Shown: positions 31,375-32,056 of the stretch, piece after piece
Layout: the number at the start of each line of letters is the position of its first letter
Position numbering within the stretch: position 1 is the first letter of the stretch
DNA from: Tahibacter aquaticus
Lineage (GTDB): Bacteria > Pseudomonadota > Gammaproteobacteria > Xanthomonadales > Rhodanobacteraceae
Direction of reading: 5' to 3'
Assembly (NCBI RefSeq): GCF_004363655.1
Contig: NZ_SNZH01000006.1
Span: 248,001 to 312,000, forward strand
DNA: 64,000 bases
Position numbers and translations under genes: made by a program
The notes under the pieces: model-generated
Database searches by the model: none
Told to the model about the DNA's origin: nothing
Seen by the model: only the letters and a program-made list of their open reading frames with translations

Positions 31375-31602
31375 TTTTTTGGGATACGGTTGAGCTGTGC
31401 TTTTGCGTTGCTGCTGGGCGGGGCGCTCTCTCTCCTCCACGCTTGCGTGGGGTAGAGGGCAGGGGAGAGGGGCGGTGTCGAAATCGACTTTGCAGCGGGG
31501 TTTTTGCGCAGTTCGATGGGCTTAGGCGAATTCGCCTCTGAGGTGCGTACGTACTGTATTTGGAGCCAGGCAAAGGCGGTTTCGCCCGCCTGCGGCGCGC
31601 GA

Positions 31603-31638
31603 CCTTCTTTCTGTTTGCCTGCCCAAAGAGAAAGAAGG
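31603..31638. repeat. Purine/pyrimidine inverted repeat in the queA-tgt spacer
   Basis: CCTTCTTTCT (31603..31612) faces AGAAAGAAGG (31629..31638), a perfect 10-bp inverted repeat with inner TTG/CAA complements. It belongs to the 31375..32056 non-coding stretch, which also holds a small CCACGC/GCGTGG hairpin at 31437..31450. I recall similar CTTTCTTTC-type segments as dispersed intergenic sequence in Xanthomonadales; this needs a genome search. Confidence 0.5.
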
Positions 31639-31664
31639 CAAAGAGAAAGGGCGCCCCAGCTGCC

Positions 31665-31770
31665 GCCATTTTGGGCCATCCGTGGCCCAAAATGGCGTGA
31701 GGCCGCTACGGCGGTCCGCACACAGAACATCCCTGTTCTGTGTGCGGACTCGCGGCCATCCCTGGCCGCG
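31665..31770. repeat. Array of three perfect hairpins with a common loop
   Basis: Stem 1: 31665..31678 with 31683..31696 (14 bp, GCCATTTTGGGCCA). Stem 2: 31714..31729 with 31734..31749 (16 bp, GTCCGCACACAGAACA). Stem 3: 31751..31758 with 31763..31770 (8 bp, CGCGGCCA). The stems are unrelated in sequence, but each closes with A-T around the four-base loop TCCG, TCCC or TCCC. No coding frame is convincing here. Confidence 0.8.
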
Positions 31771-31845
31771 ACCCTGCGGGCTTTTCCCTTGGCGGCCTCA
31801 CCGCGGCATATGCGGCCCCGGGAGAGGCGCGCTTCCTGCGCGCAG

Positions 31846-31920
31846 AAACAACTGCCACAGCAAAACAACGGCAACAGCAACAGCAAAACAACAGCAGCAG
31901 CAAAGCAACGGCAAGCGACA
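31846..31920. repeat. Low-complexity CAA/CAG-rich tract
   Basis: About 75 bp of degenerate CAACAG/CAACGG/CAAAACAA units, strongly A-rich on the plus strand and unlike the high-GC flanks. It ends about 135 bp before tgt. It may be a microsatellite-like remnant; it encodes Gln/Asn/Ser-rich nonsense in the open frames. Confidence 0.6.
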
Positions 31921-32056
31921 GTGCGGCGACAAATTGGACGTAGGCTAGGACAAGCCGCCAGACGCACTCCCGCATCGCGGTGCGCGTCGTCAAAGAACCC
32001 CTGGCGCAGGAATCTCTTCCGTGCTGCGGATTTGTCAACTAAACAAAGAATCTACT

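Follow-up and report, generated by a model that had tools for sequence, protein, structure and literature searches.

The spacer between queA and tgt of Tahibacter aquaticus, in the 64,000-nucleotide stretch of DNA that was analysed (the window), is 682 bp long, running from the queA end at position 31374 to the first tgt residue used at 32057. The spacer holds a copy of a dispersed element that is antisense to queA and to tgt. Its parts are listed below in window coordinates, with R1 denoting the covariance model of the core (163 positions).

About 31425-31914, RNA sense on the minus strand: window copy of the dispersed element
31425-31511, unstranded: outer-end segment with the CCTCCACGC/GCGTGG(GG) hairpin (31430-31457); element end, on the 3' side of the RNA strand
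31603-31638, minus: purine/pyrimidine-rich hairpin CTTCTTTCTSTTTG / CAAASAGAAAGAAG (arms 31603-31617 / 31624-31638), 93% complementary, 3' of the core in RNA orientation
31653-31818, minus: core module, R1 positions 1-163, with outer stem P1, stem P2, hairpin P3 and hairpins H3, H2 and H1
31664-31697, minus: hairpin H1, perfect 15-bp stem, plus-strand loop TCCG; RNA loop CGGA closed by CA/UG
31697-31706, minus: 3' strand of long-range stem P2, GTGAGGCCGC on the plus strand, pairing with 31792-31801; covariation
31714-31749, minus: hairpin H2, perfect 16-bp stem, plus-strand loop TCCC; RNA loop GGGA in ACA[GGGA]UGU
31750-31771, minus: hairpin H3, perfect 9-bp stem, plus-strand loop TCCC; RNA loop GGGA in CCA[GGGA]UGG
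31772-31781, minus: small hairpin P3, GCCCGCAGGG in RNA, with a loop that is not GGA
31792-31801, minus: 5' strand of long-range stem P2, GCGGCCTCAC on the plus strand; covariation
31827-31843, minus: hairpin H0, GCGCGC-AGGAA-GCGCGC in RNA, an extra GGA loop at the 5' end
31846-31914, minus: hexamer-like tract CAACGG/CAACAG (GTTGCC/GTTGCT in RNA sense), on the "centre" side of the module

The three perfect hairpins with A-T-closed TCCN loops described in the earlier note are real, with stems of 15, 16 and 9 bp rather than 14, 16 and 8 and a span of 108 bp rather than 106. On the minus strand H1, H2 and H3 each read CANGGAUG, an ANGGAX hexaloop placed directly on the stem. In the copy alignment P2 encloses H3 and H2, P1 encloses H1 as well, and P3 is a GCCCGNAGGG hairpin. 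Such stems are rare in shuffled sequence: when 31375-32056 is shuffled 300 times with its dinucleotides preserved, the longest perfect stem averages 6.0 bp (maximum 10), and stems of at least 9 bp average 0.03. The minus strand from 31590 to 31860 folds at -164.8 kcal/mol (z = -8.1), a value equalled by none of 200 shuffles. Across 800 kb of own-genome stretches sampled at steps, 5 of 80 perfect hairpins (stem of at least 9, loop of 3-4) carry a CA(N)GGATG core in one orientation, against a rough base-count expectation of ~0.2; some of the five may sit in further element copies.

The purine/pyrimidine repeat, the CCACGC/GCGTGG hairpin and the CAA/CAG tract that the earlier note had placed nearby are present and, recurring with other copies, are all parts of one element. 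Outer-end-like sequence adjoins copies L002, L003, L011 and L018, always on the 3' side; of 19 copies, 8 have the outer-end motif within 420 bp on the 3' side and 4 have it on the 5' side. A simple motif for the purine/pyrimidine hairpin is found in 10 of 19 copies, and in some the stem is wholly different. Copies L011, L012, L014, L015 and L016 carry a very different hairpin (CCAAGGAGGGGATG...) in its stead at the same site, with the structure kept. H0 is present in 16 of the 19 copies of the own genome, and a tract similar to the hexamer-like one in 14 of 19. The GTTGCC/GTTGCT tract varies widely in length among copies, reaching long arrays in L007 and L009, and is possibly a variable-number repeat. 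A separate dispersed repeat of ~77 bp adjoins tgt at 31937-32013; none of its four other genome sites (C2:407256, C15:169261, C3:158265 and C4:270489) is near a full hairpin-element copy in the same-genome BLAST listing.

Of 17 tgt loci, 14 have queA inside the 1.5-kb flank. In 12 of these 14 the aligned ends are separated by about 8-162 bp; the separation reaches about 685 bp in the window and about 948 bp in a congener (G006) that carries a decayed element copy between queA and tgt at the same place and in the same orientation. These distances bear out the earlier proposal of an insertion in a normally tight operon.

Covariation and loop constraint in the core

Against R1 the window core scores 146.3 bits. 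The order of the three hairpins is constant across the aligned copies, with the pyrimidine/purine hairpin 3', H0 5' and, upstream, a tract of the GTTGCC type. From lineage to lineage the stem sequences are unrelated, and the stems are still paired. In a MAFFT alignment of 25 diverse copies (alignment A3, comprising 25 of the 31 displayed copies and omitting L019, L035, L108, L109, L111 and L116), RNAalifold gives 57 pairs, 37 of them with double compensatory changes, and 94.4% of the cells are paired versus 74.5% in shuffles and 35-41% in slid controls. The corresponding values for 107 model-aligned copies, in an alignment fitted to the structure, are 94.7% paired and 52 of 57 pairs with double changes. 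The covariance check that the earlier note proposed thus returns strong stem-preserving covariation.

The loops differ sharply in how far GGA is kept. Among the matches listed, GGA is retained in H2 in 221, in H3 in 216, in H1 in 114 and in P3 in 5 of 225 distinct copies, counts that pool two model-fitted alignments (233 rows, 225 distinct places), R1 itself having been built from copies with GGA in H3, H2 and mostly H1. Because the loci of one alignment (A4) stem from a pattern that fixes the H3 loop, among the matches listed, the 124 copies not chosen by loop pattern are reported apart: GGA occupies H2 in 121, H3 in 115, H1 in 77 and P3 in 3. The copies are related, so that copy, loop and pair counts are not independent events. 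Around GGA in the H3 and H2 loops N and X vary and the clamp is mostly C-G/A-U, and individual GGA loops are lost in some copies. In the Dyella silvae copies shown, H1 has no GGA and presents TGCA, TATC, TTC and other loops. H1, an equally strong hairpin with a free loop, thus serves as an internal control, and the constraint on GGA applies specifically to the loops of H3 and H2. On the evidence of these alignments, the stem structure and the two loops, H3 and H2, are under selection.

RNA families are usually richer in G-U pairs than the present element. G-U and A-C pairs number 118 and 83 of 5818 cells in alignment A5 and 90 and 82 in A4, and some pair columns favour A-C. The hairpins alone, at positions 1-8 from the loop, hold 49 G-U and 28 A-C pairs, position 9 (78 versus 5) being omitted because a shared G-T outside H3 probably explains the excess; an earlier count over 173 hairpins gave 20 versus 11. 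As a test of strand, the comparison of G-U with A-C suggests a mild bias.

Dispersal, insertion and inverted pairing

A BLAST search of the spacer against its own genome returns 42 matches, including its own copy and fragments; at 18 further places the match spans 205 bases of the spacer or more, with 77-88% identity. The R1 core matches number 20 in the same genome. With the own genome included, spacer matches occur in 19 of 41 genomes (own and relatives) and R1 matches in 47 of 59 sampled family genomes, representing 23 of 26 genera; four family genomes hold at least 48-49 R1 matches each. The dispersed intergenic element suggested earlier is thereby established, and the search for other such hairpins that was proposed with it finds them both in the own genome and in relatives. 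Across the class Gammaproteobacteria, with 15 candidates scored per genome, an R1 match at E <= 0.001 is found in 21 of 185 genomes including the own one (20 of 184 others). These matches are weaker than in the family, although some fall in distant families at E values of 1e-8 to 1e-11. Phylum-wide, 4 of 299 genomes match, the own one included and all in the order of the window genome; with scoring limited to 9 candidates per genome, the lack of matches elsewhere carries little weight.

A loop-pattern scan points to Dyella, Rhodanobacter, Tahibacter, Dokdonella, Oleiagrimonas and one Marinimicrobium among the matches listed, Tahibacter and Dyella being members of the Rhodanobacteraceae. The Marinimicrobium match (L166) was rejected as an element copy, having no R1 match and merely a P3-H3-like stretch. 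This lone stretch, CCGCAGGGTGGCGCACAAGGATGTGCGCCAGTCC within L166:5100-5400, lacks H2 and lies between two terminator-like hairpins, and it may be a chance match or a single-hairpin relative. Carriage on plasmids or phages was likewise rejected, since a distant blastn search of 31560-31850 gave zero matches in the plasmid and phage collections.

Insertion is also seen in Dyella silvae. The site of one ~1 kb copy is empty in 11 of 19 other genus genomes, where the flanks are 41-106 bp apart. Among the remaining 8, G261 has the element, G262 has a 320-bp gap, and six have flanks that lie apart or are not both listed. In its dispersed copies with empty orthologous sites the element resembles a MITE-like mobile repeat. 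Across the insertion point the flanking spacers are too divergent for an alignment that would place the exact boundary or a target-site duplication.

Most Dyella silvae copies shown are compound units in which two divergent modules lie between outer terminal inverted repeats. These terminal inverted repeats are clear, and at the window copy one such end was found. In L168, L183 and L192 of this species the unit centre is occupied by another inverted sequence, GTAGGAGCGCACTTGTGCGCGACC / GGTCGCGCACAAGTGCGCTCCTAC or close to it, apparently a further repeat nested in the element. Among the matches listed, 69 of 154 aligned loci hold a close R1 pair; 70 pairs reduce to 67 on removal of repeats, and 64 of these distinct pairs are divergent, with gaps of up to 505 bp and one 5-bp overlap. 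No pair occurs among the 19 aligned own-genome copies, which are therefore regarded as solo halves. A recombination relic, as one earlier reading had it, is thus an unnecessary assumption, although the window copy does resemble half of the inverted pair common elsewhere in the family.

The placement of 33 unpaired genus copies was compared with that of the adjacent genes: 14 lie between convergent genes, 2 between divergent genes, and 12 antisense and 5 sense in tandem regions. Relative to the upstream gene 19 of the 33 are sense, and the bias is not significant. This test relied on an ad hoc gene caller that recovered queA, tgt and metG in the window and missed other genes, and it omitted genus loci with paired copies as well as the single copies L089 and L098. 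The placement is the pattern of a tolerated insertion and not that of a required 3'-UTR element.

Predicted CsrA binding and comparison with known RNAs and repeats

A hexaloop of the form C[ANGGAX]G set directly on a stem is reported as the high-affinity Csr/Rsm motif, bound by CsrA/RsmE (PMC4005645), and hairpins H1, H2 and H3 of the window have this hexaloop on their stems. When 4227 Rfam families are compared with the spacer, the best match is RsmW (RF02809) on the minus strand, with an E value of 9.5e-5 and a score of 38 bits that falls short of the 52-bit cut-off; the next best has an E value of 0.15. No Rfam family reaches its cut-off in the window or in 20 loci. A search with RF02809 finds nothing in 26 genomes and is uninformative because the 14 controls are silent too. 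The window copy also lies below the 43-bit cut-off of TwoAYGGAY (RF01731), for which five own-genome copies score 28-31 bits (best 30.6) and the best congener (G007) 40.6 bits. An R1 locus from a distant family contains two TwoAYGGAY matches above the cut-off (61.9 and 54 bits), two other R1 relatives fall below it, and three genomes from other families of the order exceed it. RsmW and TwoAYGGAY both belong to Rfam clan CL00106, presumably the CsrA-binding clan. It is very probable that the element is a dispersed, TwoAYGGAY-like one. On the best explanation, the window feature is a single, unpaired copy of an intergenic element that is dispersed and non-autonomous and has a structured core module related to TwoAYGGAY.

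As to the predicted protein partner, 16 of 17 relatives, not all of them element-bearing, and 17 of 20 element-bearing class genomes have csrA (PF02599), G025 belonging to both sets. The four misses are genomes that are 73-87% complete; among genomes with completeness of 90% or more and contamination of 5% or less, csrA occurs in 16 of 16 relatives and 17 of 17 element-bearing class genomes. The own genome encodes two CsrA proteins, of which the main one keeps L4 and R44, residues reported as important for RsmE (PMC4950607). The second is a divergent paralogue (G000:C15:54683-54838, MLVLSRDEKESILIGHDITV...); seven other genus genomes searched have one or none.

The CsrA reading is supported, at the level of sequence, by its agreement with the hexaloop consensus, the Rfam resemblances and the presence of csrA. 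Loop constraint, consensus and family resemblance together make it rather probable that the element RNA binds CsrA, and CsrA binding by the transcribed strand would be its best-supported function. RsmW, RsmZ and CsrB act by withdrawing CsrA from mRNA targets. Were the GGA strand (the window minus strand) transcribed, each C[ANGGAX]G loop would form a high-affinity CsrA/RsmA site, and one module would hold at least one CsrA dimer and withdraw CsrA from its mRNA targets in the same manner. Divergent inverted pairs occur in a little under half of the family loci examined; there, transcripts running in from either flank would include one module in the orientation that binds. Spread of the element would have depended on a mobilising activity.

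In simple consensus scans a sigma-70-like promoter was not found within 31300-32200, nor was a GacA box anywhere in the window or a terminator on the minus strand, and no conserved promoter-like sequence upstream of H0 was seen in the copies inspected by eye. A weak terminator-like match lies inside the core on the plus strand, at 31766-31779. The missing promoter, the scarce G-U pairs and the antisense placement leave some room for a role at the level of DNA. The hairpins would then form in single-stranded or cruciform DNA, the GGA loops and their clamp would be recombinase recognition sites, and the match to CsrA sites would be a coincidence. Dispersed insertions with empty sites, the predominance of divergent pairs, the terminal inverted repeats around most Dyella silvae compound units shown, the very few G-U pairs and the preference of unpaired copies for convergent over divergent neighbours all fit such an element. 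However, it does not explain why GGA is fixed while N and X vary, which is the CsrA pattern, nor why RsmW and TwoAYGGAY are the best Rfam resemblances; moreover, G-U is slightly above A-C and a mobilising protein did not come to light. A mobile element acting purely as DNA is rather unlikely, although a serious rival.

Very unlikely is an independently transcribed Rsm/Csr sRNA gene at the window locus, comparable to RsmY/RsmZ: the GGA-hairpin anatomy and the sub-threshold RsmW match would suit it, but the scans revealed no promoter, GacA box or minus-strand terminator-like site, and with 20 R1 matches in the genome the window copy is not marked as a dedicated gene. It is more improbable still that the hairpins are terminators or mRNA-stabilising structures left in the operon without a protein partner. 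They are strong, GC-rich and often near gene 3' ends, and the weak plus-strand match would agree with termination, yet this reading predicts no loop constraint and the loops of H3 and H2 are constrained while that of the equally strong H1 is not. Finally, a REP/BIME-type element moved by a RAYT (Y1 transposase) is strongly disfavoured and was rejected: the palindromes are intergenic and in inverted pairs, Y1 transposase genes occur in 41 of 59 genomes and an octamer shared with the outer ends (CCCTCTCC or GGAGAGGG) in 5 of 30 Y1 loci, but Y1_Tnp matches are not associated with the element (33 of 47 element genomes versus 8 of 12 element-free, Fisher p = 1.0), are missing from ten genomes with at least 10 copies, and are not flanked by copies (GGA hairpin in 0 of 30 Y1 loci examined, flanks up to 1.5 kb); as far as these genomes and loci show, a Y1 transposase does not move the element.

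If CsrA binding by the element RNA is the function, its consequences can be graded further. Measurable titration of CsrA by the element in the cell is plausible, though less likely than not. A broader proposal is unlikely as a whole: tens of transposable repeats in the Rhodanobacteraceae, and patchily in other Gammaproteobacteria, would form a mobile decoy system that jointly sets free CsrA and acts as the missing CsrB/RsmZ-type antagonists, would provide raw material for domesticated sRNAs such as RsmW, and in many cases would consist of divergent pairs of CsrA modules giving one sense module per read-through transcript. Csr/Rsm antagonist RNAs are usually viewed as few dedicated genes per genome. 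If the proposal is true, a mobile element present in tens of copies, each with several CsrA loops of the high-affinity form, could rewire a global regulator through copy number. Should the RNA reading prove wrong, there is still a large repeat family that covaries, is constrained at particular loops and lacks a known mobiliser.

In titles and abstract openings, with subscription journals and preprints largely outside the scope, no published description of a dispersed CsrA-loop repeat was found. Xanthomonas is presumably of the same order as the window genome. Its RsmU (Xanthomonas campestris) is similar in being an RsmA-sequestering sRNA with four GGA motifs; in contrast to the element, it is described as limited to Xanthomonas, comes from the comEA 3'-UTR and bound RsmA even with the GGA motifs changed (PMC7694677). 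Similarly, the Pseudomonas fluorescens repeats R0, R2, R26 and R200 are dispersed and intergenic, several have inverted repeats and a tail-repeat-tail bias is reported; they differ in that the consulted sections of the source describe no conserved loop motif, R26 measuring 352 bp and R200 320 bp (PMC2718517). H0 and H2 of the window align to the AGGA and AGGGA hairpins of RsmW, whereas the RsmW hairpin aligned with H3 has a consensus loop other than GGA. RsmW is described as one P. aeruginosa locus, in contrast to the dispersed family here; it binds RsmA in vitro and is apparently processed from a 3'-UTR (PMC4950607).

TwoAYGGAY shares with the element two adjacent same-strand A(N)GGAY-loop hairpins within an enclosing stem, the two neighbouring hairpins being represented in the window by H3 and H2. 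The window copy and its congeners differ in scoring below the cut-off and in adding H1, H0 and the pyrimidine/purine hairpin, and also in their arrangement as dispersed repeats, often in divergent pairs and with terminal inverted repeats in Dyella silvae. The Rfam type label of TwoAYGGAY is "Cis-reg", and a published list gives it as probably RNA and probably not cis-regulatory (PMC2864571). Its binding of CsrA is a prediction from motif annotation (PMC4333381), and if the reading proposed here is true, this motif with a predicted CsrA role gains a genomic context. A described structured-RNA motif is now linked to a dispersed, mobile-like element with inverted-pair architecture.
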